36,724 nt of DNA from the NCBI GenBank assembly GCA_030681515.1, contig JAUXSE010000042.1, positions 1 to 36,724 of the forward strand. Direction: 5' to 3'. Made by a program: the position numbers and the translations under genes. This document shows positions 1-36,724 of this stretch, piece by piece. This stretch comes from Geothrix sp. Its GTDB lineage: Bacteria; Acidobacteriota; Holophagae; Holophagales; Holophagaceae. Under the pieces are notes generated by a model. That model saw only the letters and a list, made by a program, of their open reading frames with translations. It did not search any database and was not told the origin of the DNA. Each line of letters starts with the position of its first letter. The stretch's first letter is position 1.

Positions 1-1
1 G

Positions 2-223
2 CTTGGCCTGCTGCCCCAGGGCCAGCCCGAACGCTACATCCGCGTCCGGGACATGGTCGCCCAGATGGACGCCGAGGAGTTCGGCACCTGCACCAACCAC
101 GGCGAGTGCGAAACCGCCTGCCCCAAGGGCATCAAGATGGAAAACATCGCCCGCATGAACCGCGACTACATCAAGGCCAGCCTCACCTACCGCCCTGCCA
201 CCATCGGTGGTGGCATGGCGTAG
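2..223 (+). CDS. sdhB: Succinate dehydrogenase/fumarate reductase iron-sulfur subunit, C-terminal fragment
   Basis: The 5' part lies outside the window; the last 73 residues are present. They carry [15 protein letters not shown] (Cys30, Cys36, Cys40 of the fragment), the Cys pattern of the C-terminal 3Fe-4S/4Fe-4S ferredoxin domain of SdhB/FrdB, followed by a segment like the family's NIARMNR motif. The subunit passes electrons from the flavoprotein SdhA to the membrane quinone site. The fragment ends in TAG, 13 bp before a strong terminator. In such operons sdhC and sdhA lie upstream, here beyond the edge. Membership of the SdhB/FrdB family is firm. Whether it works as succinate dehydrogenase or fumarate reductase cannot be decided. 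Confidence 0.93.
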
Positions 224-236
224 ATTCTGTTCCCTG

Positions 237-274
237 CATGAAAAGGGCCCGGCACTTGCCGGGCCCTTTTCATG
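237..274. terminator. Bidirectional intrinsic terminator between sdhB and cca
   Basis: An 18-bp perfect stem (237-254 with 257-274) around a 2-nt loop, with a GGGCCCGGCA core flanked by A4 on one side and T4 on the other. It can therefore end transcription from either strand. It sits between the convergent sdhB (+) and tRNA nucleotidyltransferase (-) genes; the stop codon of the latter lies inside the stem. Confidence 0.9.
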
Positions 275-1622
275 GGTGTCCAAGCAGCCTGGTGGCCAGT
301 TCCTCAAGCCGTTCCGGCGTGTTGGACGCGGGTTCCTCCAGCACGGCCTCCAGCAGCTGCCGCTGAAGATCGCCCAACCAGGGACCGCTGCCCCGGCCCG
401 CCAACCGCATGAGGGCTCCGCCATCCAAAGCCAGGTCCCGCACTGACAGGGGTGGCGCGGCGGCGGCCAGGGCCTCCAGACGGGACATCAGCGCCCGATG
501 CTCCGCCTCGCGGGCGTCCACCTCCAGGCCCTTACCCCGCTGGTCCGCCAGACGGAACGCGGCCCAGCGGTCCAGGGACAGACCCTCCTGGGCGAGGCGC
601 CGGAGGAACCGGCGGCAGGCGGCATCGCCCCAGTCATCGGAAGGATGGGTGCCATGGTGGCGGATCAGGGACGCCACCTCTTTCCGCAGGGCGTGACTGG
701 CCTTCAGGCGCTCGAAGATCGCCTCGGCCAGTTCCAGGGATCGCGCTTCGTGGCCGTGGAAGTGCGCCTCGCCGTCCGCCCCGGTGGTCCGCGTGCCGGG
801 CTTGCCGATGTCGTGCAGGAGCGCCGCCCAGCGCAGCCCGGATTCCGCCGGGGCGAACCGGACCACCTCCAGGGTATGGTTCCAGACATCATGGCGATGA
901 TGGCGGTTCTGGGCGCATCCGAGCATCGGCCGCAGCTCGGGCAGCCAAAGTTCCATCAGGCCGCTATCGGCCAGCAGGGCCATCCCGCGGTGGGGTTCGG
1001 CCCCTCGCAGCAGCTTGTCCAGTTCTGTGAAGACCCGCTCCACGGACACCTTGCGGGCCACTTCCAGGCGCCTGGGGATCGCGGCCAGGGTCGCGGCCTC
1101 CACCTCGAAACCCAGTTGAGCCGCAAAACGGCAGGCCCGCAGGGGACGGAGTCCATCCTCGGCGAAGCGCTTCATGGGATCGCCCACGGCCCGGATCACT
1201 CGCGCGGCCAGGTCGGCACGGCCCCCGAAGGGATCCACCAGCTCGCCCCCGCCGGCCGGCAGGGCCATGGCGTTGATGGTGAAGTCGCGGCGCGACAGGT
1301 CCTCCGCGAGATCAACCCCGAGGCGCACCGACTCGGGCCGCCGGCCATCCAGGTAATCGCCATCGCTGCGGAAGGTCGTCACCTCCACCGGGCGATCCTC
1401 CAGGATCACGGTCACCGTGCCGTGCTGCAGGCCCGTGGGGATCACCTTCAGGCCCGCGGCCCGCGCCCGGTCCATGACCACCTGCGGCATCAGCCGGGTG
1501 GCCAGATCCCAGTCGGCGTGGGGACGCCCAAGGAGCTCATCCCGGACGGCGCCGCCCACCACCATCAGCTCCGCGCCGGGGCCCAGGGCCCCCTGGAGGC
1601 GGAGCAGCGGGGCCCAGGTCAA
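270..1622 (-). CDS. cca: tRNA nucleotidyltransferase (CCA- or A-adding) with HD domain
   Basis: A 450-aa protein of the class II nucleotidyltransferase superfamily (CCA-adding enzyme/poly(A) polymerase). GGAVRD (about residues 23-28) and the catalytic DWD (37-39) form the polymerase head. RRDFTINAMA and the GDPMKRFAEDGLRPLRACRFA stretch form the neck and RNA-binding region. HHRHDVWNHT and LLHDIGK give a C-terminal HD phosphohydrolase-type domain. The enzyme builds or repairs the 3' CCA end of tRNAs. The start is placed at TTG 1620-1622, which overlaps the stop of the upstream GNAT gene and leaves about 20 residues before GGAVRD, as is usual. The longer open frame runs through the GNAT gene out of frame and is not coding. 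CCA-, CC- and A-adding activities cannot be told apart by eye. Confidence 0.9.
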   Translation of the reverse strand: MTWAPLLRLQGALGPGAELMVVGGAVRDELLGRPHADWDLATRLMPQVVMDRARAAGLKVIPTGLQHGTVTVILEDRPVEVTTFRSDGDYLDGRRPESVRLGVDLAEDLSRRDFTINAMALPAGGGELVDPFGGRADLAARVIRAVGDPMKRFAEDGLRPLRACRFAAQLGFEVEAATLAAIPRRLEVARKVSVERVFTELDKLLRGAEPHRGMALLADSGLMELWLPELRPMLGCAQNRHHRHDVWNHTLEVVRFAPAESGLRWAALLHDIGKPGTRTTGADGEAHFHGHEARSLELAEAIFERLKASHALRKEVASLIRHHGTHPSDDWGDAACRRFLRRLAQEGLSLDRWAAFRLADQRGKGLEVDAREAEHRALMSRLEALAAAAPPLSVRDLALDGGALMRLAGRGSGPWLGDLQRQLLEAVLEEPASNTPERLEELATRLLGHP

Positions 1623-2101
1623 TCCGTCATCCCGGCGAGCCGCCGGAGGGCTTCGCCTTCCACCCGGCAGGTGAGCCAGGGGCGCATGACCTTCGCGCCA
1701 TGGGCCTCGTAGAACTCGATGGCCGGGGTGTTCCAGTCCAGCACCTGCCATACGAAGCGGGTCCAGCCCTCCTGCACCGCGAGGGCGGCGAGATGCTTCA
1801 GCAGGGCCTTGCCGATGCCATGGCCCCGGAAGGCGGGGCGCACGAAGAGATCCTCGAGGTAGATGCCGGGCTGGCCTTCCCAGGTGCTGAAGTTCAGGAG
1901 CCAGAGCGCGAATCCCGCGGGCTGCCCGTTCCATTCCGCCAGGGTCACCTTCACCAAGGGATGCTCCGAGAACGCGTACCGGTGGATATCCGCCTCGGTG
2001 GCGATGGCCGCCTCTGGCTCGCGTTCGTACGCCGCGAGTTCGCGGATGTATTGAAGGATCAGTGGGGCATCGGCGGGAACGGCGGGGCGGAGGGTCAGCA
2101 T
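1619..2101 (-). CDS. GNAT family N-acetyltransferase (SSAT-like)
   Basis: A 160-aa single-domain acetyltransferase. Beta strand 4 and the acetyl-CoA pyrophosphate loop read YLEDLFVRPAFRGHGIGKAL (81-100), with RGHGIG at 92-97. DWNTPAIEFYEAHGA (122-136) is the usual C-terminal motif with the candidate general-acid Tyr131. The whole layout, including WNGQPAGFALW and NFSTWEGQPGIYLEDL, resembles spermidine/spermine N1-acetyltransferase and related diamine acetyltransferases. Acceptor substrate is inferred only. It overlaps cca by 4 bp, so the two genes are probably cotranscribed. No Shine-Dalgarno sequence precedes the ATG; a TAGCAT box lies 6 nt upstream. Confidence 0.9.
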   Translation of the reverse strand: MLTLRPAVPADAPLILQYIRELAAYEREPEAAIATEADIHRYAFSEHPLVKVTLAEWNGQPAGFALWLLNFSTWEGQPGIYLEDLFVRPAFRGHGIGKALLKHLAALAVQEGWTRFVWQVLDWNTPAIEFYEAHGAKVMRPWLTCRVEGEALRRLAGMTD

Positions 2102-2106
2102 TGGAA

Positions 2107-2113
2107 TATGCTA
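2107..2113. promoter_or_regulatory. Overlapping divergent -10 boxes for GNAT and E1-alpha genes
   Basis: Only 17 bp separate the two divergent ATG codons (2101 minus, 2119 plus). TATGCT (2107-2112, plus) ends 6 nt before the E1-alpha ATG. TAGCAT (2113-2108, minus) ends 6 nt before the GNAT ATG. This is the TANNNT-6-ATG layout of leaderless promoters. I see no -35 on either side and no ribosome binding site. Confidence 0.4.
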
Positions 2114-2118
2114 ACCGG

Positions 2119-3066
2119 ATGGACCGCGACACCGCCCTCCGCCTTCACGAGGCCATGCTGCTCACCCGCCTCGCCGAGGAGCGGCTGGTGAAGCTCTTCC
2201 GCCAGGGGAAGACCCTCGGCAGCGTCTACCGCAGCCTGGGCCAGGAGGCCACGGCCTGCGCCACGGCCATGGCCCTGGGCCCCGAGGACATGATCGCCCC
2301 GCTGATCCGCAACCTGGGTTCCATGTTCGTCCGCGGCGTCACGCCAAGCGAGATCTTCCTTCAGTATCTGGGCCGGGCCACGGGCCCCAGCGGCGGGCGC
2401 GAACACAACAACCACTTCGGTTCCGTGGAGCGGGGCATCATCGCGCCCACCTCCATGCTCGGCGCCCTCATCCCGGTGATGGCGGGGGTGGCATTGTCCT
2501 TCCGGCAGAGGGGCGAGCGGCGCGTGGCCATGACCTGGATCGGCGATGGCGGCAGTTCCACCGGCGCCTTCTACGAGGGACTCAATTTCGCCGTGGTGCA
2601 AAAGCTCCCCCTCATCGTGGTGGGGGAATCCAATGGCTACGCCTTCTCGACGCCCCCGGACCGCCAGATGGCGGGGCGGATGTCGCTCCGCTCCCAGGGG
2701 GCCTTCACCCTCACCGTGGATGGCAACGATGCTGCGGTGGTCTTCGAGGCCGCGGCCCAGGCCCGCCAGCGCTGCCTCGAAGGCAAGGGCCCGGTCTTCC
2801 TCGTCTGCGAAACCTTCCGCAGATCGGGCCACGCGGAGCACGACGATCAGCGCTACGTGGATCCCGCGCTCCTCACCCAATGGGCTGCCAAGGATCCCCT
2901 GCCCCGCTTCGAAGCCTGGATGGCTCTCCGGGGCTGGACCCCGGACCCCGGACTGGCCGCCCGGATCGAGGCGGAGCTCCTGGCCTCGTCGGATGCCGCC
3001 CTCGATGCGCCCTGGCCGCAGCCGGACCGGCTTGCCACTGGCATCTTCTCCACCTTGAAGACCTGA
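2119..3066 (+). CDS. Thiamine-diphosphate-dependent 2-oxoacid dehydrogenase E1 alpha subunit, orphan
   Basis: A 315-aa protein of the E1-alpha family (pyruvate, branched-chain 2-oxoacid and acetoin dehydrogenases), which decarboxylates a 2-oxoacid on ThDP and passes the acyl group to E2 lipoyl. The ThDP motif starts at GDG (142-144) and closes at Asn172 in ESN, where most relatives have ENN. A phosphorylation-loop-like RRSGHAEHD (234-242) is present. The start at 2119 is chosen because the residues after it match the family; a longer frame to 2062 would run into the divergent GNAT gene. E1-alpha normally pairs with E1-beta, but no E1-beta, E2 or E3 gene lies here, and the next gene is a chemoreceptor. 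Substrate unknown. Confidence 0.87.
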   Translation: MDRDTALRLHEAMLLTRLAEERLVKLFRQGKTLGSVYRSLGQEATACATAMALGPEDMIAPLIRNLGSMFVRGVTPSEIFLQYLGRATGPSGGREHNNHFGSVERGIIAPTSMLGALIPVMAGVALSFRQRGERRVAMTWIGDGGSSTGAFYEGLNFAVVQKLPLIVVGESNGYAFSTPPDRQMAGRMSLRSQGAFTLTVDGNDAAVVFEAAAQARQRCLEGKGPVFLVCETFRRSGHAEHDDQRYVDPALLTQWAAKDPLPRFEAWMALRGWTPDPGLAARIEAELLASSDAALDAPWPQPDRLATGIFSTLKT

Positions 3067-3119
3067 CCGGTCAGCATTCAACCCCGGCATCCTTCCATCC
3101 GATCAAGACAGAGATGGCT

Positions 3120-3124
3120 GGAGG
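3120..3124 (+). promoter_or_regulatory. Ribosome binding site of the chemoreceptor gene
   Basis: GGAGG lies 5 nt before ATG 3130 and decides between this start and the in-frame ATG further in. Confidence 0.7.
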
Positions 3125-3129
3125 CTTGG

Positions 3130-4728
3130 ATGCGATGGAGATGGCTGGTGCTCAACCTGTCCGTGAAGGGTAAATTCTTTTTCCTCCTCGGGATCCAGCT
3201 GATCATCCTGCTCGCCATCAGCGCCCTGGCGTGGAAAGGATTGGCGGAGGGGCTGGGTACCCAGGCCCAGCTCGCCGAAAGCACCCCGCGGCTGGGCGCC
3301 CTGGCGGACATGCGCTTCCGCCTGATGCTGGTGCGGGCCGAACAGCTCGGAATCCTCGGTGGCGCAAGCGCGCCGGGGTTCGTGGAAAAACGGATGCCCC
3401 AGCTGAAGGAGCTGGAATCCGGCCTGGAGGCCTCCTTCGCGGTGGTCCAGTCCTCGGTCTGGTCCAAGGAAGACAAGGAGGCCCTCGAAGCGGGCATCGA
3501 AAGCATGCGCAGCTACATCCGGGCCTTCCCCGGCCTCATGGGCGTGGCCCGCACCGGCGATGGTGCCGACATGAAGGATGCCTACATGAGGGCCAACACC
3601 CGCTGGGTGGAGGAGGCCAAGGAATCGGTCAACCAGGTCATCGGCCGGCTGGTCGCCTCCAATCAGGCGAAGATGGATCAGGCCGAGTCCCGCACGAAGA
3701 CCAGCCAGCGGATCCTGGCCGCCGGACTGATCCTTGCCGCAGGGTTGGGCATGGCGATCTCGCTCCATGTCAGCCGGGCCATGAAGGGGGCGGTGGACGA
3801 GCTGCGCGAGTGCCTTGCCGCCCTGAGCCACGGAGACCTCACCCGCACGTGCCAGCTCAAGTCGAAGGAGGAATTGGGCGAGATGGGGCGGAACCTGAAC
3901 CAGGTGCTGGGCCAGCTCGCCGACGATATCCAGGCCATCGCCCAGTCCGCGGAAGGGACCGCCTCCAGCGCCACGGAGCTGGCCGCGACCACGGAACAGG
4001 TGAACCGCACCACGGACGAGTTGCGCCGCAGCACGGAGCAGGAACGCCTCGCCATGGAGCGATCCTCCGCCGCCCTGGAGCAGATGAACGCCAATATCCA
4101 GCAGGTCAAGCAGAACACGGGCCGGGCTGAGGAATTGGCCGCCCGGTCGCAGGAGGCAGGCCAGCAGGGGCTCAAGGCGGTGCGGGACACCGGCCGGGCC
4201 ATGGAAGCCATCGAGGAGAGCTCCTCCAAGGTGAACCGCATCATCACCGTCATCACCGATATCGCCCGGCAGACCAACCTGCTCTCCCTGAACGCGGCCA
4301 TCGAGGCCGCCAAGGCGGGGACCATGGGCAAGGGTTTCGCCGTGGTGGCCGAGGAGGTCCGGAAGCTGGCGGAACGCAGTGGCACGGCGGCCAAGGAGAT
4401 CACGGCCCTCATCCAGGAAAGCACCGATCGGGTGGCCCTTGGTGCCGATTCTGTGAAGCAGGCTGCGCGCAGCCTGGAGCGCATCGAGGGGCATGTCCGC
4501 GAGAATGCCGGCCAGCTCAAGGAGATCGCGAGCGCCATGGATGAACAGGGGCGCGCCAGTGAAGAGGTGGTCCGAGCCATGGCCTCGGCCACCCTGATGG
4601 TGGGGCGCAATGCCTCCGCCGCCACCCAGCTGTCCGCCACGGTCCAGGAGACCGCCCGCACCACGGAGGAACTGGCCAGCCTGGCCCAGCAGCTCCAGAC
4701 CCTGACCCGGCGGTTCAAGATCTCATGA
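3130..4728 (+). CDS. Methyl-accepting chemotaxis protein
   Basis: A 532-aa transmembrane chemoreceptor. TM1 is at about 17-38, followed by a roughly 155-residue, mostly helical extracytoplasmic sensor of four-helix-bundle type (39-193). TM2 is at about 194-213, then HAMP (214-266) and a long coiled-coil signalling domain (267-532). The hairpin tip at 376-410 contains [20 protein letters not shown] and [18 protein letters not shown], the CheA/CheW contact. The ligand is unknown. No C-terminal CheR/CheB-docking pentapeptide is seen; the chain ends RRFKIS. No che genes adjoin it; a separate CheB-type methylesterase lies at 17585-18175. Confidence 0.96.
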
Positions 4729-4789
4729 CGACCGAATCGTCAACAATGCTGCACCGGTCACGAAGGCCGAGGGTTAGACTATCCCTGTC

Positions 4790-5971
4790 ATGGGGGATAC
4801 CGTGTTCGTTCTCGTCCTGAATGCCGGCTCTTCGAGCCTGAAGTTCAATCTTTTCGACATGGCCAATGAGGTCTCCATCGCCGAGGGCATGGCGGAGCGG
4901 ATCGGCCTGGCCGGGTCCAACCTGGCCTGCACGCTCGAAGGGGAGAAGCGCAAGGAAGTCCTGGACCTTCCCACCCACAAGGAGGCCCTGGAGGCCATCC
5001 TGGAGCGCCTCCGGACCACCGTCCTCCATGACACGCCGATCCACGCCGTGGGCCATCGCGTGGTGCACGGCGGCCCCAAATACGGGGATTCGATCCTGGT
5101 GACGGACGAGGTGCTCCGCGACATTGACACCTTCGCGATGTACGCGCCCCTGCACAACCCCGCCAATGCCATGGGCATCCGCGTGGCCCAAGCCGCCTTC
5201 CCCGACGTGCCCCATGTGGCGGTCTTCGACACGGCCTTCCACCACAACATCCCCGATCACGCCCGCACCTACGGCATCCCCTACGAATTGAGCCAGAAGT
5301 ACGGGATCCGCCGCTACGGGTTCCACGGCACCAGCCACGCCTACGTCGCGGCCCGGACGGCCATCCTGCTCTGCCGGCCCCTTCGGGCCCTGAAGATCGT
5401 CACCTGCCACATCGGCAACGGCACCAGCATCTGCGCCGTCCACAGCGGCAAGAGCATGGACACCAGCATGGGCATGACACCGCTCCAGGGCGTCATCATG
5501 GGCACCCGCTGCGGCACCATTGATCCCAGCGTGGTGGAAATGCTCATGGAGTACGAGCACCTCGACTACAACGCCATCACCGACCTGCTCAACAAAAAAT
5601 CGGGTCTGCTGGGCATCTCCGGCGTGTCCTCCGATTTCCGCGAAATCGAACTGGCCGCCGATCAGGGCAATGACCGGGCCCGGCTCGCCCGCGACCTCCT
5701 GACCTACAACGTGCGCCAGTACATCGGCGCCTATGCCACGGTCCTGGATGGCGTGGATGCCATCACCTTCACCGCCGGCATCGGCACCCACAGCACCTAT
5801 GTCCGCGCCAAGGTGTGCAGCAAGCTGGGGTTCCTGGGCGTCAAGCTGGATCCCGAAGCCAACGAGCACGGCACCGGGGAACGCATCATCACCACCCCGG
5901 ATTCCCGCGTGGCCGTCACGGTCGTTCCCACCAACGAGGAGTTGATGATCGCGCGGGAGACCGTGCGGTAG
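4790..5971 (+). CDS. ackA: Acetate kinase
   Basis: A 393-aa ASKHA-fold kinase that makes ATP and acetate from acetyl phosphate and ADP, or the reverse. NAGSSSLKF (11-19), GHRVVHGG (88-95), HNPAN (122-126), FDTAFH (146-151), RRYGFHGTSH (174-183) and GKSMDTSMGMTPL (220-232) are all present. Catalytic and binding positions known from the Methanosarcina enzyme line up as Asn11, Arg90, His122, Asp147, His179, His207, Arg240 and Glu384. Two departures: the usual GIGEN loop reads GIGTH (330-334), and SGDIDP/CGDIDP reads CGTIDP. No pta (phosphotransacetylase) is nearby. No clear ribosome binding site is present; TAGACT lies 9 nt before ATG. Confidence 0.95.
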   Translation: MGDTVFVLVLNAGSSSLKFNLFDMANEVSIAEGMAERIGLAGSNLACTLEGEKRKEVLDLPTHKEALEAILERLRTTVLHDTPIHAVGHRVVHGGPKYGDSILVTDEVLRDIDTFAMYAPLHNPANAMGIRVAQAAFPDVPHVAVFDTAFHHNIPDHARTYGIPYELSQKYGIRRYGFHGTSHAYVAARTAILLCRPLRALKIVTCHIGNGTSICAVHSGKSMDTSMGMTPLQGVIMGTRCGTIDPSVVEMLMEYEHLDYNAITDLLNKKSGLLGISGVSSDFREIELAADQGNDRARLARDLLTYNVRQYIGAYATVLDGVDAITFTAGIGTHSTYVRAKVCSKLGFLGVKLDPEANEHGTGERIITTPDSRVAVTVVPTNEELMIARETVR

Positions 5972-5985
5972 GGGAGCCCACGGCC

Positions 5986-7059
5986 CTGGCCAAGGTCGCT
6001 TCTCCGTGGACCTACCTGGGCATCCTCGTCTTCCTCCAGGGGAAGTTCTACGGGATCTTCTCCTTCCTCTTCGGGCTTGGATTCGCGATCCAGATGGAGC
6101 GTTTCGAGACGCGCGGCGAGGCTCCCGGAAAACGCTTCCGCCGGCGCCTCTACATCCTCATGGGCTTCGGCCTCCTCCATGGCCTCCTGGTCTGGATGGG
6201 GGACATCCTCGCCATCTACGCCCTCATCGGACTCCTTCTCCCGGCCTTCAGCCGCTGCCGCCCCAGAACCCTGCTGATCTGGGCGGGAGGCCTCCTCCTG
6301 TTCCAGTCGCTCCTGTTCATGGCCCTTTCGGGCCTGGCGGCCCTGGGCTTCGCCTTCGCCCCCGACCAGGTACAGAGAGCCCTGGATCTCCAGGCCCAGG
6401 AAACGGTCCGCAAGGTCGGGCAGAGCCTGGCAGCGTACGGCGCAGGCCCCTACGGACTCCTGTTCCGGTTCCGGGCCAGGGAACTGGCCGCCAACTACGG
6501 CGCTTCCCTCGCCATGTCCCCCCACATCCTGGCCATGTTCCTGCTGGGACTCTGGGCCTGGAAGCGGGAGCTGGCGAAGGACCTGGAAGCCCACCGCCCC
6601 ATCCTCGGGAGGGTGGCGGTCTGGGGCCTCGGCCTCGGTCTGACGGGCAGCCTGGCCTATGCGTTTCTCTTCTCCCATGGGCTCGCGGATCGGGGCCTGC
6701 CCACGGCCCTGCTGGGACTCTCCATCTCTTTCCTGGCCTCCCCGGCCCTGAGCCTGGGCTACCTCGCGGCCTTCGCGCTGCTCCTCCTGGGCCCAGGAAG
6801 GGCCGCTGTGGGCCTGCTGGCTGGACTGGGACGCATGAGCCTCTCCCACTACCTGCTACAGAGCCTCGTGATGACCTCCCTCTTCTACTTCTACGGCTTC
6901 GGCCTCTTCGGCAGGTTGCCGCTTCCCGCGACCCTCCTGATGGGACTGGGGCTCTGGAGCCTCCAACTCATCCTCAGCAGAAGCTGGCTGGCCAATCACG
7001 CCCAGGGTCCCCTGGAGCGGGTCTGGCGCAGCCTGACCTACAGCCGCCTCCGGGCCTGA
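5986..7059 (+). pseudogene. DUF418 (YeiB-like) membrane protein lacking its N-terminus
   Basis: The reading frame matches the DUF418/YeiB family from GKFYGIFSFLFGLGFAIQ onward, including the hallmark GDILAIYALIGLLLP and a C-terminal run of hydrophobic helices to TYSRLRA. Members normally begin with an R..LD.LRG..LLGI helix some 70-90 residues before GKFY; this part is absent. Upstream, the frame enters ackA (stop 5971) and I find no ATG, GTG or TTG between ackA and the first conserved residues. The only in-frame ATG upstream is at 5815, inside ackA. The 5' limit given is a CTG and is arbitrary. Either a deletion joined ackA to a truncated gene, or translation is coupled from ackA by an unusual start. 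Function of the family is unknown; membrane transport has been suggested. Confidence 0.6.
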
Positions 7060-7089
7060 GGCGTCCGGCGGTGGGGGCGCCGGAGCATT

Positions 7090-7106
7090 CCCCGGCACCG
7101 CCGGGG
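7090..7106. terminator. Short GC hairpin after the DUF418 gene
   Basis: CCCCGGC (7090-7096), loop ACC, GCCGGGG (7100-7106): a perfect 7-bp stem 30 bp after the stop at 7059. No T-tract follows, so a true intrinsic terminator is doubtful. The remaining sequence up to 7233 shows only a TAGGCT box near 7182 as a weak -10 candidate for the exporter operon. Confidence 0.35.
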
Positions 7107-7233
7107 AGCTGGCCGGTCCGTCGAGACGGGTGGCCGAATCCCGGAAGGACTGTCCTCTAAACGGACCCAGACTCTCCCCCGTAGGCTTCCAGTCATCCCG
7201 GCAAGCCCGGTGTCTTTCCCATCAGGGGGTTCC

Positions 7234-8454
7234 ATGCAGAAACGATGGGTCATCATATCTTTGGCCGGCGCGGCCCTGGCGGCGGGCATGTTCTTCACCC
7301 TGAAGGGCGACGACGGCAAGTCCAAGAAACCCGAGGCCAGCACCCCCTTCCGGCTGGGCAAGGTGCAGGCCGAAGACCTCCAGGTGAGCGTCCGCGAGGT
7401 CGGCGTGGTGGACCCCCTCACCAAGGTGGAGGTGAAGTCCACGGTATCGGGGCGCATCGTCGGGCTGCGGGTCCGCGAGGGCGCCACCGTGAAGGCGGGC
7501 GAGGTGCTGGCCGAGGTCGAGCCCGACGTGAACCAGGCGCAGACCCTGTCGGACGTCCAGGGCAGCGTCTCCCAGGCCCGGCTCAGTTTCTTGAACGCCG
7601 ATCGGGAATTCGCCCAGCAGGCGGCCCTCTTCCAGGCGGGGCTCATCTCCGAGCAGGCCCACCGGGATGCCCGGACCAGGCGGGATCTCGCCGAGGAGGT
7701 CTTCAAGAGCGCCCAGACCCGGTACCAGATCGTCGAGGACCGCGGCATCCCCATCAGCGGAAACGCCTCCACCCAGAAGGCCCGCGTCACCGCCCCCATG
7801 AACGGGGTGGTGATCAAGAAGGGCGTGGAGCTGGGCGATACCATCACCTCCGGCGTCAGTTCCTTCAATGCGGGCACCGTGGTGTTCACCGTGGCCGACC
7901 TGGCCTCGCTCATCGTGAAGGTGAACCTCAACGAGGTGGACATCGCCAAGGTGAAGGTGGGACAGCCCGTGCGCATTACCCTGGACGCCTATCCCCAGCG
8001 TGCCTTCACCGGGAAGGTGCGCTTCGTCGCCCCTGCCGCCGATCTCGTCGAAAAAATCAAAGTCTTCAAGGTGGAAGTGGGACTGGATGAGCTCACCGAG
8101 TCCTTCAAGACGGGCATGAGCGCCAATGTGGAAATCCTGGGCGAAAAGCGGGACAAGGCCGTGAGCGTGCCGCTCGAAGCCCTTCAGCGCCGGGACGGCC
8201 AGACGGTGGTCTTCCGGCTGAAGGAGAACCTGTCGCCCAAGGACATCGCCAAGGCCAAGGATGGGCTTACGGGCCGGGGCAAGTTCATCTGGCTGGCGGA
8301 CCACTGGAAGGACTACTTCGACGTCGTGCCCGTCAAGGCCGGCATCGCCACCCTGGAGCGGGTGGAGATCCTTTCGGGCCTCAAGGCCAACGACCAGGTG
8401 AGCCTGGAAGACCCCAGCAAGAAGAAGGTCGAGAAGGATGATGAAAACAATTAG
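7234..8454 (+). CDS. Periplasmic adaptor of ABC exporter (HlyD/MacA-like membrane fusion protein)
   Basis: A 406-aa membrane fusion protein that links an inner-membrane ABC pump to an outer-membrane channel. An N-terminal membrane anchor lies at 5-23. The two lipoyl/biotinyl-like half motifs are at about 66-96 (VEVKSTVSGRIVGLRV) and 183-203 (ARVTAPMNGVVIKKGVELGD), separated by a helical hairpin at 101-170. Beta-barrel and membrane-proximal domains follow. The tail is Lys/Asp/Glu-rich. The ATG at 7234 is preferred over an upstream GTG at 7210 because GGGGG stands just before it. First gene of a four-gene set with the ATPase and two permeases. No TolC-like gene is in the window. Substrate unknown. 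Confidence 0.9.
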   Translation: MQKRWVIISLAGAALAAGMFFTLKGDDGKSKKPEASTPFRLGKVQAEDLQVSVREVGVVDPLTKVEVKSTVSGRIVGLRVREGATVKAGEVLAEVEPDVNQAQTLSDVQGSVSQARLSFLNADREFAQQAALFQAGLISEQAHRDARTRRDLAEEVFKSAQTRYQIVEDRGIPISGNASTQKARVTAPMNGVVIKKGVELGDTITSGVSSFNAGTVVFTVADLASLIVKVNLNEVDIAKVKVGQPVRITLDAYPQRAFTGKVRFVAPAADLVEKIKVFKVEVGLDELTESFKTGMSANVEILGEKRDKAVSVPLEALQRRDGQTVVFRLKENLSPKDIAKAKDGLTGRGKFIWLADHWKDYFDVVPVKAGIATLERVEILSGLKANDQVSLEDPSKKKVEKDDENN

Positions 8455-8515
8455 CTGTCAGCTATCGGCTGTCAGCGATCAGTCACTGAAAGCTGATAGC
8501 TGACAGCCGACAGCT
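8453..8515. repeat. Imperfect palindromic intergenic repeat (REP-like hairpin)
   Basis: Two 24-nt arms (8453-8476 and 8492-8515) around a 15-nt loop. They pair except for two A-C mismatches and two G-U wobbles. Each arm is itself built from two GCTGTC-AGC-type units, and the loop contains the smaller palindrome TCAGT-C-ACTGA. It fills the gap between the adaptor and ATPase genes and begins inside the adaptor stop codon. It may modulate mRNA stability inside the operon or be a dispersed repeat element. Confidence 0.8.
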
Positions 8516-8529
8516 TCACGGAGCGACCC

Positions 8530-9216
8530 ATGTCCAGCATCATTCAAACCCAGGGCCTCACCAAGGTGTACGGCGCCAACGGGGCGGCGGTACATGCGCT
8601 GCGCGGCATTGACCTCACCGTGGCGAAGGGTGAGTTCGTGGCCCTCATCGGTCCTTCGGGATCCGGCAAGTCCACCCTCATGGCCATCCTCGGCTGCCTG
8701 GATCTGCCCACGGCCGGGACCTACACCCTGGATGGCCGCGAGGTCCAGAGACTCTCGGGCGGTGAATTGGCGCGGATCCGCAACGAGAAGGTAGGCTTCA
8801 TCTTCCAGAGCTACAACCTGCTGCCCAAGGCGAGCATCGTCCGCAACGTGGAACTGCCCATGCTCTATGCGGGCATCGGCCGGAAGGAACGCCGGGAAAG
8901 GGCCATGGCCCTGCTCGAAAAAGTGGGCATCGCCGACAAGGCCGGCCATCTCCCGGGGACTCTCTCGGGCGGCCAGAAGCAGCGCGTGGCCGTGGCCCGG
9001 GCCCTGGCCAACGAACCCGCCCTGCTGCTGGCGGACGAGCCCACGGGCGCACTCGATTCGAAAACCGGCGCAGAAGTCCTGGACCTCTTCCGCGAGCTCC
9101 ACGAGCAGGGCCATACCCTGCTGCTGGTGACCCACGATCCCTCCATCGCCGCCCTGGCGGAGCGGCGGGTAGAAATCCGGGACGGCCTGATCGCCGCGGC
9201 TGAAGGAGTCGCTTAG
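8530..9216 (+). CDS. ABC transporter ATP-binding protein (MacB/LolD type)
   Basis: A 228-aa nucleotide-binding subunit. Walker A GPSGSGKST (41-49), Q-loop Gln93, signature LSGGQ (145-149, continuing KQR), Walker B LLLADE (165-170) with the following PTGALDS D-loop, and H-loop His202 are all intact. LSGGQ(K/Q)QR with DEPTGALDS is typical of the family that powers MacB/LolCDE/FtsE-type mechanotransmission exporters. GGAG 8 nt before the ATG is the ribosome binding site. The stop codon touches the ATG of the first permease, so the two are translationally coupled. Confidence 0.95.
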   Translation: MSSIIQTQGLTKVYGANGAAVHALRGIDLTVAKGEFVALIGPSGSGKSTLMAILGCLDLPTAGTYTLDGREVQRLSGGELARIRNEKVGFIFQSYNLLPKASIVRNVELPMLYAGIGRKERRERAMALLEKVGIADKAGHLPGTLSGGQKQRVAVARALANEPALLLADEPTGALDSKTGAEVLDLFRELHEQGHTLLLVTHDPSIAALAERRVEIRDGLIAAAEGVA

Positions 9217-10467
9217 ATGGCCACCACCGGCGCCTTCCGCGAGCGGCTGCTCGAGGCCTGGGTGGAGATCCGGGAGAACCTCGGACGCTCCATCCTCCAG
9301 GCTCTTGGGGTCCTGCTGGGCGTGGCCTCGGTGCTGGGCGGATTTTCCATCTCGGACAGCCAGCGGAAGCGGGCCGATGAGATGTTCGTGAAGATGGGCG
9401 GCCTCGACAAGCTGAACATCCAGCCCAAGGCGGCCCTTCGGGATGGACGGCCCACGGCGCTCCAGCAGGCCAACCTGGGACTCCGGGATGCCGATGCCAT
9501 CGGTGGCGAGGCCCTCCAATCGGACGCCATCCAGGGCGTGAGCCGCCTCAAGAATGCCCGCACCCGGGTGGTGTCTGGCTATGCCGACCAGGACCGGCAG
9601 GTGAGCGGCATCGGCGGCGACTTCATCCCCGCCAATGGCTACGGCCTCGCCCAGGGCCGGAGCTTCTCGACCATGGACATGGAGACCGGAGCCCCCGTGG
9701 CCATCCTCGGCACCGAGGCCGCCACTGTTTTCTTCCCCAAGGGCGATGCCCTCGGACAGTCCCTGCGCATCGGCAACATCCCGGTCACGGTCATCGGCAC
9801 CTTCCAGGAACGGGTGTTCCGGTTCCGCGAGAACCAGGGCAACCAGTTCTGGTGGCGCAACCGCATCATCGCCGTGCCCGCCAGCCTGGTGCAGCGCCGC
9901 ATGAACGGGGACGCCTACCACCGGGTGGACCGGGTCACCTTCCGCATCCCCGATCTCAACGCCATGAGCGGATTCGCCGAGCAGCTCAGGAACCTCGTGA
10001 AATCCAACCACCGCCTGGAGGAAGACTTCCGCCTGGACGACGTGGCGGCCAGGGTCCGGCGGCGGCAGAGCCAGGGCAGCGTCTACGACATCATCTTCAT
10101 GCTCTCGGGCGTGCTGGCCCTGGTGGGCGGCGGCATCGTGAACGTGAACATCCAGATGGCGAGCCTGAAGGAGCGGGTCCGCGAAGTGGGCGTGAAGATG
10201 GCCATCGGCGCCCCGGGCCGGGAGATCTTCAAGAGCTTCATGACCGAGGCCCTCCTGCTGACGGCCCTGGGTGGATTCGCCGGCCTGTTCCTCGGGATCG
10301 GTTTCTCGTGGATCATCACCTCGAGCATCGGCATTCCGCTCTACATGACGCCCGCCAGCTTCCTCTGGGCCTACGGCCTGGCCGCGGCCTCCGGCTTCCT
10401 CTTCGCGCTCTACCCGGCCTGGAAGGCCAGCCGCCTGTCTCCGATGGAAGCTCTGCGCTATGAGTGA
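9217..10467 (+). CDS. ABC transporter permease 1 (MacB PCD plus FtsX domains)
   Basis: A 416-aa permease with one N-terminal helix (about 24-45), a large periplasmic core domain (about 46-285) and three C-terminal helices (about 290-311, 346-369, 380-400) in the FtsX-type arrangement. The coupling segment between TM2 and TM3 reads LKERVREVGVKMAIGA, the usual contact with the ATPase. The chain ends SRLSPMEALRYE, a family signature. It probably forms a heterodimer with the next permease. It moves substrate handed over in the periplasm rather than across the inner membrane, by analogy with MacB. Confidence 0.93.
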   Translation: MATTGAFRERLLEAWVEIRENLGRSILQALGVLLGVASVLGGFSISDSQRKRADEMFVKMGGLDKLNIQPKAALRDGRPTALQQANLGLRDADAIGGEALQSDAIQGVSRLKNARTRVVSGYADQDRQVSGIGGDFIPANGYGLAQGRSFSTMDMETGAPVAILGTEAATVFFPKGDALGQSLRIGNIPVTVIGTFQERVFRFRENQGNQFWWRNRIIAVPASLVQRRMNGDAYHRVDRVTFRIPDLNAMSGFAEQLRNLVKSNHRLEEDFRLDDVAARVRRRQSQGSVYDIIFMLSGVLALVGGGIVNVNIQMASLKERVREVGVKMAIGAPGREIFKSFMTEALLLTALGGFAGLFLGIGFSWIITSSIGIPLYMTPASFLWAYGLAAASGFLFALYPAWKASRLSPMEALRYE

Positions 10468-11773
10468 CGAGACGCTCATCCTCCGCTCCCCCGGACCCTC
10501 CCTGCTGGACGGCGAGGCCCCTGCCCCGGCGGTTCCCACGCGCGGATTCAGCGCGGGAATGCTCTGGGAAGTGATCCGCACGGGCCTGGTGGAGCTCTGG
10601 GCCCACAAGATGCGCAGCCTCCTCACCCTCACCCTTCTCATGCTCGGCGTCTTCGCGCTGGTGGTGATGACCTCGGTGCTGGACGGCGTCATGGACAAGA
10701 TCAGCACGGGCTTTGCTGGCATGAGCTGGGATGGCACCGTGCGCATCGCCCCGAAGACGCCCGAAACGGGCGAGGAGCGCAAGCGCTTCAACATGAGCCC
10801 CGGGCTGCGCTACGAGGATCTCGGTCGCGTCACCGCGGCGAATCCCAAGGTCCTGGCCTTCCTGCCCAGAGCCCAGAAGACCATCACGGTGCGAGTCGCG
10901 GGGGGCACCGAGCGCATCTTCGTTTCGGGAGTCTCGCCCGGCTACGCCCCATGGATGAACCGGCCCATCGGCCTCGGGCGCGGCCTCACCGAGGATGATC
11001 AGCGCCGCCGCTCCACCGTGGCCGTGGTGGGCGCCACGCTGGCCACCAAGCTCTTCGGCGGCGCCGATCCCGTGGGTCGCGACCTGGTGGTGGAGGGCGT
11101 GCCCTTCCGCATCGTGGGCGTACAGGCCCCGGGCCAGATCTTCAACGAAGAAAACTACACCGACGCCAATGGCATCCTCATTCCCCTGGAAACCTACATG
11201 GACCGCATGGATCCGGCCCACAAGCTCTCGCAGATCACGGTGAAGCTGCGCCGGTCCGAGGACATGGGCGAGGTCTCCGCCATGCTGCTGGGCCGCGTGC
11301 GGCAGGCCCATCACGGCATCGAGGATGTGGAGGTGGTGGATCTCGATGCCGAGGCCGCCAAGGGCTACCAGAACTTCCTGGAGCAGATGCGGGGCTGGCG
11401 GATCGTGCTGCTGAGCCTGGCCGGCACGGTGCTGCTGGTGGGCGGCGTGGGAGTGCTGTCGGTGATGCTCATCAGCTTCAGCGACCGCCGCTTCGAGATC
11501 GGCCTCCGCAAGGCCCTGGGCGCCTCGGATCAGGAGATCTTCATCCAGTTCCTGCTGGAGGCCGTGGTGCTGGCCGCCATCGGCGCCCTGCTTGGAACCC
11601 TTTCCGGCGCCTTGCTCTGCCAGGCCCTGTCCGCCAGCTTCCCCTACGGTCTGGTGGTGAATCCCATCGGCCTGATCACGGCCTGGATCGTGGCCCTGAC
11701 GCTGGCCGTGGTGTTCGGCCTCTATCCGGCCTTCCGTGCCATGCGCCTCAGCCCCATGGAGGCCATGCGGTAG
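10460..11773 (+). CDS. ABC transporter permease 2 (MacB PCD plus FtsX domains)
   Basis: A 437-aa partner of permease 1, starting 8 bp inside its 3' end. A 45-residue Pro/Ala-containing N-terminal extension precedes TM1 (about 52-74). The periplasmic core domain covers about 75-310, with TM helices at about 313-337, 364-388 and 400-422. The coupling segment reads FEIGLRKALGA, and the C-terminus MRLSPMEAMR mirrors that of permease 1. Two different permeases with one ATPase imply a heterodimeric pump with a homodimeric ATPase. Last gene of the exporter operon; 18 bp separate it from arfB. Confidence 0.93.
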   Translation: MSDETLILRSPGPSLLDGEAPAPAVPTRGFSAGMLWEVIRTGLVELWAHKMRSLLTLTLLMLGVFALVVMTSVLDGVMDKISTGFAGMSWDGTVRIAPKTPETGEERKRFNMSPGLRYEDLGRVTAANPKVLAFLPRAQKTITVRVAGGTERIFVSGVSPGYAPWMNRPIGLGRGLTEDDQRRRSTVAVVGATLATKLFGGADPVGRDLVVEGVPFRIVGVQAPGQIFNEENYTDANGILIPLETYMDRMDPAHKLSQITVKLRRSEDMGEVSAMLLGRVRQAHHGIEDVEVVDLDAEAAKGYQNFLEQMRGWRIVLLSLAGTVLLVGGVGVLSVMLISFSDRRFEIGLRKALGASDQEIFIQFLLEAVVLAAIGALLGTLSGALLCQALSASFPYGLVVNPIGLITAWIVALTLAVVFGLYPAFRAMRLSPMEAMR

Positions 11774-11779
11774 GGGCGG

Positions 11780-11785
11780 TAGGAT
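11780..11785 (+). promoter_or_regulatory. TANNNT -10 candidate before arfB (leaderless)
   Basis: TAGGAT ends exactly 6 nt before ATG 11792, and no Shine-Dalgarno sequence is present. The same spacing is seen at the GNAT and E1-alpha starts. Confidence 0.35.
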
Positions 11786-11791
11786 CGCTTC

Positions 11792-12217
11792 ATGGCCGAT
11801 CCTATCCAAGTCACCGATTCCGTCCGCGTCCCGGGCGAAGCCATCCGCTTCAAGGCGGTACGCGCCGGCGGCGCGGGTGGCCAGAACGTGAACAAGGTGT
11901 CCTCCAAAGTGGAGCTGCGCATTGATCTCACGGCCATCGAGGGCCTGCCGGAGGACGCACTGCTCCGCCTCCGGGTGGTTCAGCGCAACCGGCTCGATGC
12001 CGAGGGCCTCTGGATGGTCGTGAGCGACCGCACCCGCGATCAGCTCAAGAACCTGGAGGATGCCCGCCACAAGGTCGCCGAGGGCATCCGCGCCGCGCTG
12101 ATCCGTCCCATTCCGAGGCGGCCCACCAAGCCCACCAAGGGATCGAAGGAACGGCGGCTGGATTCCAAGAAGCGGGCCTCCGCGACCAAACAGCAGCGAC
12201 GCGGAGCCTTCGAGTAG
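11792..12217 (+). CDS. arfB: Peptidyl-tRNA hydrolase ArfB (ribosome rescue)
   Basis: A 141-aa class I release-factor-like protein. The catalytic GGQ lies in AGGAGGQNVNKVSSKVELR (GGQ at 29-31). The C-terminus is the basic tail RRPTKPTKGSKERRLDSKKR, which in ArfB/YaeJ enters the empty mRNA channel of stalled ribosomes. It lacks codon-recognition domain 2, so it is not RF1/RF2. It releases nascent chains from ribosomes on non-stop mRNAs, as a back-up to tmRNA. It may have its own leaderless promoter. Confidence 0.94.
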   Translation: MADPIQVTDSVRVPGEAIRFKAVRAGGAGGQNVNKVSSKVELRIDLTAIEGLPEDALLRLRVVQRNRLDAEGLWMVVSDRTRDQLKNLEDARHKVAEGIRAALIRPIPRRPTKPTKGSKERRLDSKKRASATKQQRRGAFE

Positions 12218-12241
12218 GCTGGAGGTCCCCACGGAGGCCCT

Positions 12242-12673
12242 ATGTCCCAACAGCAGACCTACGCCAACCACCGGCGCTTTGAACCGATCCAGCATTTCGT
12301 CGTGATGCCCATCCTGCTGGTCACCTGGATCGCCACGGTCTGGCAGGCCATCAAATTCCCGAGCCTGCACAGCGTCTGGGTCGCCGTCCTCGGGTTCGCG
12401 TTGCTCCTGCTCGCGAACCAGGTCCGCGCCTATGCGCTGAAAGTGCAGGACCGCCTGATCCGGCTGGAGGAAACCTTGAGGATGCAGCGTCTCTTCCCCG
12501 CGGATCTCCAGGGGCGCATCCAGGAACTGTCGCCCAAGCAGATGGTGGGCCTCCGGTTCGCCTCCGATGGGGAACTGGCGGAGCGGACCCGCGAGGTCCT
12601 CGACCAGAACCTCAGCGGCGAAGCGGTCAAGAAGCGCATCCAGACCTGGCGGCCCGACACCTTCAGGGTTTGA
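12242..12673 (+). CDS. DUF6526 family membrane protein
   Basis: A 143-aa protein beginning SQQQTYANHRRFEP, followed by two hydrophobic helices (about 19-36 and 43-60). Then come NQVRAYALKVQDRLIRLEE and a soluble helical tail that ends in RIQTWRPDTFRV. The pattern matches the small DUF6526 family, whose function is unknown. GGAGG lies 6 nt before ATG. Its stop is only 3 bp from the convergent msr stop, and no terminator is visible between them. Confidence 0.8.
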   Translation: MSQQQTYANHRRFEPIQHFVVMPILLVTWIATVWQAIKFPSLHSVWVAVLGFALLLLANQVRAYALKVQDRLIRLEETLRMQRLFPADLQGRIQELSPKQMVGLRFASDGELAERTREVLDQNLSGEAVKKRIQTWRPDTFRV

Positions 12674-12676
12674 GCC

Positions 12677-13747
12677 TCAGTCCCGCACGTAGTGGCAGGT
12701 GTAGCCGCCGGGGTTCTTGACGAGGTAGTCCTGGTGGTAGTCCTCGGCCATCCACCAGGGCCCGGCCACCGTGATCTCGGTGACGATGGGCTGCTTCCAC
12801 TTGCCGCTGGCATCCACCTCCGCCTTCACCCGCTCCGCGGTCTGCCGCTGAGCGGCCGAGTGGAAGAAGATCGCGCTGCGGTACGAGGTGCCCAGATCAT
12901 TGCCCTGGCGGTTCAGGGTGGTGGGGTCGTGCATGCGGAAGAAGAAGCGCAGCAGCGCCTCATAGGTGGTCTTCGATGGATCGAAGCGGATCTGCACGGC
13001 CTCGGCATGGCCCTCGTGATTCTTGTAGGTGGCGTTCGCCAGGCTGCCGCCGGTGTAGCCCACCTCGATGGCGGTCACGCCGGGCTGCTTGCGGATCAGA
13101 TCCTCCATGCCCCAGAAGCAGCCACCGGCCAGGGTGGCGATCTCCTCCTTCGCTGCGGGCTTCGGCGCGGGCGCGGCCTTTCCGAACAGCGGCAGGAAGG
13201 AACCCAAGCCCTCCTTCTCCAGGCTGTCCACGGGGACGAAGCGCAGGGAGGCGCTGTTGATGCAGTAGCGAAGGCCACCCTGGTCCTTCGGCCCATCATC
13301 AAACACATGGCCCAGGTGGGAATCCGCGTCTTTGGACCGCACCTCGGTGCGGATCATGCCGACGCTGACGTCCCGCTTCTCTACGACATCCTCGCCGGCC
13401 AGGGGCTTCGTGAAGCTGGGCCAGCCGCAACCGGAATCGAACTTGTCCTTGGAGGAGAACAGGGGCTTTCCGCTGACGACGTCCACATAGACACCATCCC
13501 TGTGTTCGTTCCAGTACTCGTTGCGGAAGGGTGGCTCCGTGCCCGCCTCCTGGGTCACATGGAACTGCATGGGCGTGAGCTTCTGCTTCAGATCGGCGGG
13601 ATTGGGCTTCTTGGAATCAGTCACCGGGTCCTCTCGGGTGGGCAGGGCGGCCGCATGGGCGGGCCGGTGGGTGGTGGAGACAGCGAACCCGAAGCCCGCC
13701 AAGGCCACGGTGAGGGCAACGCCGCCCCAGAACAGGCGTGGACGCAT
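12677..13747 (-). CDS. msrBA: Exported bifunctional methionine sulfoxide reductase MsrB-MsrA
   Basis: A 356-aa fusion. An N-terminal signal peptide (charged MRPR, hydrophobic to about 24, AHA-A near 30-33) sends it to the periplasm. MsrB comes first (about 55-180): DSGCGWPSF with Cys107, [11 protein letters not shown], and the catalytic Cys162 in [11 protein letters not shown]; it reduces Met-R-sulfoxide. The zinc CxxC pairs of many MsrBs are absent. An Ala/Pro/Lys linker follows. MsrA is at about 201-356, with catalytic Cys210 in GGCFWGMED and a C-terminal Cys351 (GGYTCHY) as likely resolving residue; it reduces Met-S-sulfoxide. The order B-A is the reverse of Neisseria PilB, and the thioredoxin domain of PilB is lacking. 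AGGAGG precedes the ATG. Confidence 0.94.
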
Positions 13748-13846
13748 GGAAAGCCTCCTGAATGAGACTTGGATGCTCGCAATGGGTTGGATGGTACAAG
13801 GGAATGAGGCCCGGGAAAGAAAGGGGGGGCTGGAGGGTATGCGGAC

Positions 13847-14239
13847 CTAATCCAGCCACGCTTTCAGGATTCCGTTGAAGGCCTCGGAACACTCGAAGGC
13901 CACGAGGTGCCCCGCCTTGGGAATGAGCTTCAACTGGGCGGCAGGGATGGCCCTCGCCAGGGCTTCAGATTCGCTGATTGGCATGATGGTGTCATCCAGG
14001 TGCTGCATCAACGCAAAGAGGTCGTCGGCGTACTGGTTCATCGAGACAGAACCAGCCCTGACTCCGCTCTCGCCAAGGCCCCGTAGGTCCGGCGCAATCA
14101 CGCGATGGTCCGGGCGGAAAGCCATCACCTGCTTTTCCCAGGTACCACGACTCAAGGGGAACCCATGGACGAAAAGCAGGGGCGAACCCTTCCCTTCGTC
14201 CGTGTAGGCGACTTCGATGCCATTCACCCGCGCGCGCAT
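13847..14239 (-). pseudogene. Alpha/beta hydrolase with internal in-frame deletion (no nucleophile)
   Basis: The frame gives 130 aa where the family has about 260. The N-terminal half is normal: LLFVHGFPLSRGTWEKQV with the oxyanion HG (25-26), and APDLRGLGESG. It then jumps after MQHL (about residue 81) to DDTIMPISESEALARAIP and PKAGHLVAFE, which belong near the C-terminus and include the catalytic-acid region and His111. The nucleophile elbow G-x-S-x-G and the lid are missing. The frame stays open across the join (around 13994-13999). As it stands it should be catalytically dead as a Ser hydrolase. Either a real decaying gene or a collapsed assembly. Confidence 0.75.
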
Positions 14240-14310
14240 AGCTCCCCCACACAGTCATTCGAACAGAGCAGGAGCCGGAAGGACAGGGTTCCAAAGCCTG
14301 CTTGCCCGAC

Positions 14311-15257: not shown

Positions 15258-15289
15258 GAAATCCCTCCGGTCGTACCGTTGATCTACGC

Positions 15290-15421: not shown

Positions 15422-15503
15422 GTGACCCTCGCCAATGGCCCTGGCCGCGCCTAGTCGAGGCCAGAGTCGCTTTCAGAGCAGCATTCGAGCCATTTTCTAA
15501 GTC

Positions 15504-18175: not shown

Positions 18176-18238
18176 ATCAGGGCCTCTGAAGCAGCGCACA
18201 AAAGGCGGACCTTCGGTGGGGGCTCAGCACACTCGGGC

Positions 18239-35106: not shown

Positions 35107-36455
35107 CCTGGGCCCCGCTGCTCCGCCTCCAGGGGGCCCTGGGCCCCGGCGCGGAGCTGATGGTGGTGGGCGGCGCCGTCCGGGATGAGCTCCTTGGGCG
35201 TCCCCACGCCGACTGGGATCTGGCCACCCGGCTGATGCCGCAGGTGGTCATGGACCGGGCGCGGGCCGCGGGCCTGAAGGTGATCCCCACGGGCCTGCAG
35301 CACGGCACGGTGACCGTGATCCTGGAGGATCGCCCGGTGGAGGTGACGACCTTCCGCAGCGATGGCGATTACCTGGATGGCCGGCGGCCCGAGTCGGTGC
35401 GCCTCGGGGTTGATCTCGCGGAGGACCTGTCGCGCCGCGACTTCACCATCAACGCCATGGCCCTGCCGGCCGGCGGGGGCGAGCTGGTGGATCCCTTCGG
35501 GGGCCGTGCCGACCTGGCCGCGCGAGTGATCCGGGCCGTGGGCGATCCCATGAAGCGCTTCGCCGAGGATGGACTCCGTCCCCTGCGGGCCTGCCGTTTT
35601 GCGGCTCAACTGGGTTTCGAGGTGGAGGCCGCGACCCTGGCCGCGATCCCCAGGCGCCTGGAAGTGGCCCGCAAGGTGTCCGTGGAGCGGGTCTTCACAG
35701 AACTGGACAAGCTGCTGCGAGGGGCCGAACCCCACCGCGGGATGGCCCTGCTGGCCGATAGCGGCCTGATGGAACTTTGGCTGCCCGAGCTGCGGCCGAT
35801 GCTCGGATGCGCCCAGAACCGCCATCATCGCCATGATGTCTGGAACCATACCCTGGAGGTGGTCCGGTTCGCCCCGGCGGAATCCGGGCTGCGCTGGGCG
35901 GCGCTCCTGCACGACATCGGCAAGCCCGGCACGCGGACCACCGGGGCGGACGGCGAGGCGCACTTCCACGGCCACGAAGCGCGATCCCTGGAACTGGCCG
36001 AGGCGATCTTCGAGCGCCTGAAGGCCAGTCACGCCCTGCGGAAAGAGGTGGCGTCCCTGATCCGCCACCATGGCACCCATCCTTCCGATGACTGGGGCGA
36101 TGCCGCCTGCCGCCGGTTCCTCCGGCGCCTCGCCCAGGAGGGTCTGTCCCTGGACCGCTGGGCCGCGTTCCGTCTGGCGGACCAGCGGGGTAAGGGCCTG
36201 GAGGTGGACGCCCGCGAGGCGGAGCATCGGGCGCTGATGTCCCGTCTGGAGGCCCTGGCCGCCGCCGCGCCACCCCTGTCAGTGCGGGACCTGGCTTTGG
36301 ATGGCGGAGCCCTCATGCGGTTGGCGGGCCGGGGCAGCGGTCCCTGGTTGGGCGATCTTCAGCGGCAGCTGCTGGAGGCCGTGCTGGAGGAACCCGCGTC
36401 CAACACGCCGGAACGGCTTGAGGAACTGGCCACCAGGCTGCTTGGACACCCATGA
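35103..36455 (+). CDS. cca: tRNA nucleotidyltransferase with HD domain (mirror copy)
   Basis: Identical 450-aa protein to that at 270-1622; TTG start at 35103-35105 overlaps the GNAT stop. Confidence 0.89.
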   Translation: MTWAPLLRLQGALGPGAELMVVGGAVRDELLGRPHADWDLATRLMPQVVMDRARAAGLKVIPTGLQHGTVTVILEDRPVEVTTFRSDGDYLDGRRPESVRLGVDLAEDLSRRDFTINAMALPAGGGELVDPFGGRADLAARVIRAVGDPMKRFAEDGLRPLRACRFAAQLGFEVEAATLAAIPRRLEVARKVSVERVFTELDKLLRGAEPHRGMALLADSGLMELWLPELRPMLGCAQNRHHRHDVWNHTLEVVRFAPAESGLRWAALLHDIGKPGTRTTGADGEAHFHGHEARSLELAEAIFERLKASHALRKEVASLIRHHGTHPSDDWGDAACRRFLRRLAQEGLSLDRWAAFRLADQRGKGLEVDAREAEHRALMSRLEALAAAAPPLSVRDLALDGGALMRLAGRGSGPWLGDLQRQLLEAVLEEPASNTPERLEELATRLLGHP

Positions 36456-36488
36456 AAAGGGCCCGGCAAGTGCCGGGCCCTTTTCATG
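36451..36488. terminator. Bidirectional terminator between cca and sdhB (mirror copy)
   Basis: Mirror of 237-274. Confidence 0.9.
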
Positions 36489-36501
36489 CAGGGAACAGAA
36501 T

Positions 36502-36723
36502 CTACGCCATGCCACCACCGATGGTGGCAGGGCGGTAGGTGAGGCTGGCCTTGATGTAGTCGCGGTTCATGCGGGCGATGTTTTCCATCTTGATGCCCTT
36601 GGGGCAGGCGGTTTCGCACTCGCCGTGGTTGGTGCAGGTGCCGAACTCCTCGGCGTCCATCTGGGCGACCATGTCCCGGACGCGGATGTAGCGTTCGGGC
36701 TGGCCCTGGGGCAGCAGGCCAAG
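36502..36723 (-). CDS. sdhB: Succinate dehydrogenase iron-sulfur subunit, C-terminal fragment (mirror copy)
   Basis: Same 73-residue fragment as at 2-223, cut at the same base by the window edge. Confidence 0.92.
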
Positions 36724-36724
36724 C

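Follow-up and report, generated by a model that had tools for sequence, protein, structure and literature searches.

Why does a complete contig of a bacterial genome assembly read identically on both strands? The window analyzed here, 36,724 bases long, is the entire contig C40 (positions 1–36724; JAUXSE010000042.1) of a Geothrix sp. draft assembly (G000; GCA_030681515.1) of 3,197,944 bases in 66 contigs. Base-by-base comparison of C40 with its own reverse complement gave 0 mismatches in 36,724 bases, the full-length identity expected of a whole-contig palindromic artefact; the two arms of 18,362 bases meet between positions 18362 and 18363 with no spacer, as a sequence-only reading of this DNA had claimed. 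This comparison confirms a self-complementarity that cannot arise by chance. C40 is almost certainly an artefact of assembly or library, and the particular cause that we consider highly probable is an in-silico fold-back of a single-copy chromosomal arm at a tRNA-terminator hairpin. The genes of the arm are most likely not duplicated in the real genome.

The genes on one arm (1–18362) are ordinary chromosomal ones; they run from the 3' portion of sdhB to a gene encoding a 196-amino-acid protein with a CheB methylesterase domain (17585–18175, plus strand; Pfam PF01339). The sequence-only reading had proposed a search of related genomes with the region downstream of cheB. In a CheB protein scan, the closest named relative was the metagenome-assembled genome Geothrix sp. 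GS30 (L159; Acidobacteriota, Holophagaceae), whose CheB is 97% identical. Within a comparison stretch of 10 kb on each side of cheB, GS30 is collinear with arm positions 7603–18198 in five blocks of 88–97% identity; additional sequence, at most about 0.9 kb per stretch, lies between the blocks, and arm positions 15860–17487 are absent. Beyond the arm, GS30 continues with a terminator-like stretch, an oppositely oriented tRNA-Thr(CGT) gene and a gene for prolyl oligopeptidase, so that the arm is present there once, followed by other sequence and no mirror copy. In a further relative (G014), arm positions 15888–17542 together with the tail-repeat element described below, without cheB, adjoin tRNA-Thr(CGT) and the oligopeptidase gene. 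The neighbourhood therefore leads to tRNA-Thr(CGT) in both relatives.

The outer ends of the contig point in the same direction as a single-copy arm. The last 69 bp of contig C36 (67,565–67,633) overlap exactly with window positions 1–69 (plus strand) and, in mirror image, with 36656–36724 (minus strand). Joining C36 and C40 over this overlap restores a 262-residue stop-to-stop sdhB frame with its stop at window position 223, the C-terminal part lying at 2–223 (plus strand) and the remainder at the end of C36; the rejoined frame scores 428 bits (cut-off 243) with model NF005746 for the succinate dehydrogenase/fumarate reductase iron-sulfur subunit, and the junction is collinear in all four relatives compared (G005, G012, G014, and G023). 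This bears out the earlier statement that the window breaks off at an identical base of sdhB on either side, which is no separate evidence because any self-complementary contig must have such ends. Both ends of each of the 66 contigs were surveyed; 19 contigs (29 kb) consist entirely of N, which left 94 of 132 ends usable. Twelve pairs of ends share a prefix of exactly 141 bp and seven pairs overlap by exactly 141 bp, the remaining overlaps ranging from 61 to 140 bp. Exact overlaps of the maximum k-mer length (k) at contig ends are described for metaSPAdes and MEGAHIT assemblies in the COBRA paper, which gives the MEGAHIT k list as 21, 29, 39, 59, 79, 99, 119, and 141 (PMC10914622), and the ends in the present assembly resemble them with a maximum of 141. 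Unlike such ends, C40 and C36 share 69 bp, which is less than k and thus a break without a branch. Among the usable ends, both ends of C40 overlap C36 only, with no k-length branch and no second flank; the sdhB end thus has the appearance of a break in coverage and not of the border of a two-copy stretch.

The axis lies in a hairpin of terminator type. In six relatives, a terminator separates the tail-repeat element from tRNA-Thr(CGT), the edge of the tRNA reading TGGAGCC. If the present genome resembles them, the real chromosome would have a 40-bp perfect palindrome at 18343–18382, whose left half is arm sequence and whose right half is probably natural because the tRNA-Thr(CGT) genes of all six relatives read TGGAGCC there. 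The natural length of the hairpin would be 40 bp instead of the 30 bp first given. In one relative (G015), a perfect palindrome of 42 bp with the same core CCCCCGCATGCGGGGG occurs naturally, immediately ahead of tRNA-Thr(CGT) (L015:1480–1521). In the present assembly, the next-longest perfect palindrome is 26 bp (290,352 bases scanned, overlapping pieces included). The tail-repeat element occupies 18226–18344 on the minus strand, and on that strand a tRNA gene would be expected immediately ahead of it, on the far side of the axis. In 44 of 49 other loci carrying the element, a same-strand tRNA gene lies 1–82 bp before it (none in the other five), and the window has none: ARAGORN and Rfam at gathering scores found neither a tRNA nor any Rfam family in it. 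The same searches disposed of the suspicion, raised by a T-loop-like sequence, that the axis holds a tRNA, whole or in part.

The following course of events would account for C40. In the real chromosome, the 40-bp palindrome would be followed by the tRNA-Thr(CGT) gene or its 3' part, and the true continuation leaving the palindrome would read TGGAGCCAACT... The tRNA side would have been under-covered, or trimmed away as a short dead end. With k no larger than 39, a path entering the palindrome would then have the reverse complement of the arm as its sole exit, and the graph path would therefore be the arm followed by the reverse-complement arm. As iterative assemblers hand their contigs to the next k, the false junction would persist to k = 141, and both ends would break off where coverage is low, at one point in sdhB. 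This course was modelled with a toy iterative de Bruijn assembler (the k values of the MEGAHIT list; 150-base error-free reads), in which dead ends under 2k were clipped and contigs were passed on to the next k. The input consisted of the arm once, the palindrome and the GS30 sequence beyond. When coverage ended 0, 10, or 25 bp beyond the palindrome, the exact 36,724-base window contig was produced in all three cases; no palindrome formed with full coverage, or when one base was changed so as to break the palindrome. The toy assembly shows sufficiency under these stated conditions and is not proof that the event occurred.

The neighbour expected past the axis is absent from the readable contigs. 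With up to three mismatches, no match to the hairpin was found in the assembly outside C40, and no tRNA-Thr(CGT) was found outside it in a search with the tRNA-Thr(CGT) region of G014 (the 19 contigs made up of N alone, 29 kb in an assembly of 3.2 Mb, being unreadable). This search matched a tRNA-Thr on contig C51 and ten other loci, in which ARAGORN found other tRNAs or, in one of them, none. The prolyl oligopeptidase gene of this genome and a tRNA-Thr sit at the dead end of C51, which stops 279 bp past that tRNA.

Several observations weigh against a fold-back in the assembler. C51 does not directly abut the axis, as shown by the TGT anticodon and different T-arm of its tRNA-Thr and by its last 279 bp, which match no other sequence compared; an inserted island, a second tRNA-Thr or a strain mixture might explain the mismatch. 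The right half of the palindrome cannot be read apart from the artefact; the left half is read directly. A perfect palindrome of at least 20 bp is present in only one (L015) of 15 comparison loci, and the property therefore varies; the tail-repeat element is missing from this place in GS30. In the toy assembly without dead-end clipping, none of three cases (one with coverage stopping inside the palindrome) folded back. The loss of coverage past the axis is assumed, and the identity of the assembler is presumed. Also, a second flank of the arm could hide in the 19 all-N contigs (the shortest contig is 1,008 bases) and is not strictly excluded.

Where the chain would have folded back is the point on which the closest rival differs. 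An amplification or library chimera, or hairpin-primed copying, could have folded the molecule back in the tube at the same hairpin, the assembler merely reporting the product. The axis falls exactly on a strong hairpin, and at one locus (L038, picked for its long inverted copy) a natural tRNA, terminator and element together fold at −130 kcal/mol (z −12.1). Nevertheless, chimeras formed in the tube would need to be more numerous than true molecules at the locus, and the toy assembly needs only a single-copy arm and a drop in coverage; we regard an in-tube origin as unlikely.

The remaining rivals would make the palindrome real. Hairpins are able to seed inverted dimers, and a tail-to-tail inverted duplication of 18.4 kb without a spacer, or an inverted-dimer amplicon, might have formed at the terminator hairpin; its arms would be identical, as they are here. 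A two-copy arm with different flanks should, however, end at a k-length branch leading to two contigs, where only C36 with its 69 bp was found among the usable ends, and GS30 is single-copy here. Zero divergence over 18,362 bp also argues against two resident copies. Further, the genome encodes SbcCD-like proteins: SbcD is encoded on contig C57 (163.5 bits, cut-off 77.65) next to an SbcC-like frame of 1036 amino acids, which matches in two stretches of 141 and 124 bits, under a cut-off of 478.5 that just one of 14 control genomes passed. Long palindromes placed in the E. coli chromosome are described as causing inviability (PMC3855049). Altogether, a real duplication is very improbable. A hairpin-ended linear replicon, of which C40 would be a replication intermediate or terminus, is still harder to credit, and we give it hardly any weight. 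A hairpin telomere unfolds into a palindrome while replicating, which would suit the symmetry; the arm, however, is ordinary chromosome whose two ends are both collinear with relatives, and such hairpins lie within the relatives' chromosomes. Twenty selected frames of the arm were scanned with Pfam; 14 gave a match (E ≤ 0.001), and none of the matched families is a telomere resolvase or replication protein. The sequence-only reading had preferred a fold-back artefact and had named two alternatives, a giant inverted duplication and a replication intermediate of a molecule with hairpin ends; the preference is supported by the single-copy arm of GS30, the 69-bp overlap with C36, the arrangement in six relatives, the palindrome of G015 and the toy assembly, and no support was found for the alternatives.

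Palindromic contigs have been met before in short-read assemblies. In a Mycobacterium bovis pangenome study (PMC9455707; 81 contigs) and in cyanobacterial single-cell genomes (PMC12755884; a small number), they were judged likely or very likely assembly errors and removed. Like C40, these are contigs that mirror themselves entirely; the passages on them in both papers name no sequence cause (PMC9455707; PMC12755884), whereas the axis of C40 can be tied to a tRNA-terminator palindrome and was reproduced in a toy assembly. Among the open-licence literature searched, no title was evidently on assembler palindromes or on repeats after tRNA genes, including those of rtT type. The present case connects a contig of this kind with one particular, probably natural hairpin. 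If C40 is a fold-back, about 18 kb of genes are wrongly present twice in a genome whose rating is 99.48% completeness and 0.6% contamination, and claims on gene dosage, synteny or a giant palindrome drawn from it would therefore be wrong. A simple screen that flags contigs identical to their own reverse complement is suggested.

The tail-repeat element next to the axis appears real in itself and may represent a structured RNA family. It consists of an inverted T-arm copy, a structured core and a T-arm-like end, and scores 138 bits with covariance model R1, which was built from eight elements including that of the window; its mirror (18381–18499, plus strand), which R1 also matches, is regarded as artefactual. 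Under stricter filters, R1 finds the element in 23 of 41 genomes, comprising 23 of 25 genomes of this genus and none of 16 others of the class. The present genome has six further R1 matches, on contigs C38, C50, C21, and C5; those on C38, C50, and C21 follow tRNA-Pro, tRNA-Arg, and tRNA-Met, respectively. At gathering scores, Rfam gave no match to the element in the window, and only the adjacent tRNAs in nine other loci.

The 49 loci mentioned above are not a random sample: they comprise the best 30 of the R1 search and chosen places, mostly proline tRNAs, and were obtained from 52 sources by leaving out the window (L260), a partial element at a contig start with no tRNA found (L282) and a locus at the same place as L288 (L304). 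One element was taken per locus, in arrays the one nearest the tRNA; the elements often stand in tandem. The preceding tRNAs were those for Pro (25), Arg (8), Thr (7), Met (2), and His (2). The inverted 3' part of a tRNA scored higher on its own element than on the average of elements at tRNAs for other amino acids in 41 of 44 loci (means 17.4 vs. 9.9). When 39 chosen elements, that of the window among them, were aligned with MAFFT and not fitted to R1, 17 of 25 predicted pairs had two-sided compensatory changes. In the fitted set, i.e., an alignment to R1 of 82 matches (79 distinct, the window's element being present in both mirror copies), such changes were seen in 24 of 33 pairs, in 296 cells compared with 74.5 ± 6.9 in shuffles. 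In the predicted fold of the read-through RNA of L038, the T-arm pairs with its inverted copy.

Taken together, these elements might form a family of structured repeats, so far undescribed, that accompanies tRNA genes in the genus of Geothrix; we regard the chances of this proposal as evenly balanced. A copy would typically follow the tRNA terminator, begin with an inverted T-arm copy of the same tRNA, have a core of several covarying hairpins, and often occur in tandem arrays. The inverted copy could, in read-through RNA, pair with the 3' half of the tRNA in place of the cloverleaf, and the element may thus act as a switch, a quality-control tag or a decoy; alternatively, fold-back copying in vivo at the terminator hairpin would make and correct the inverted copy. 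Both roles, refolding of read-through transcripts and upkeep through fold-back copying, are our inferences. Fold-back copying, if it takes place, would be a small natural version of the assembler's fold-back.

Repeats of the rtT type downstream of E. coli tyrT stand just after the tRNA gene and carry copies of its 3' part. The element of the Geothrix genus likewise stands right after a tRNA gene with a copy of the tRNA 3' part; unlike rtT, its T-arm copy is inverted and its core is built of several covarying hairpins. By eye, the element end at L271 (Thr-like), L298, and L309 (both Pro-like) resembles a direct copy of a tRNA 3' tail up to CCA, in the manner of tRNA-tail repeats. In several drafts, elements stand at the very start of a contig (G022:C21:1–81, G008:C33:8–100, G003:C239:1–68, G023:C106:9–77, and G009:C57:13–147), and such loci may therefore break assemblies. 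At the oligopeptidase locus on C51 (C51:21939–22292; L049:3940–4293), the tRNA-Thr has a TGT anticodon and an altered T-arm, the anticodon being CGT in GS30 and G014; an element was possibly inserted into this tRNA gene.

In a permissive Rfam scan of 17900–18500, all 15 matches were under their gathering scores, the best being a microRNA hairpin model on the palindrome. The mirror of the CheB gene (18550–19140, minus strand), seen in the base comparison, is regarded as artefactual. Two frames of the arm, 498–1712 (404 amino acids) and 6006–7160 (384 amino acids), have no Pfam or NCBIfam match at E ≤ 0.001. Within 2062–17401, Pfam matches indicate an E1 dehydrogenase, a chemotaxis-receptor (methyl-accepting chemotaxis) protein and acetate kinase; HlyD, ABC, and two MacB-FtsX exporter proteins, an RF-1-domain protein and a DUF6526 protein; and MsrA and MsrB (minus strand), an alpha/beta hydrolase and a flavodoxin-like reductase.

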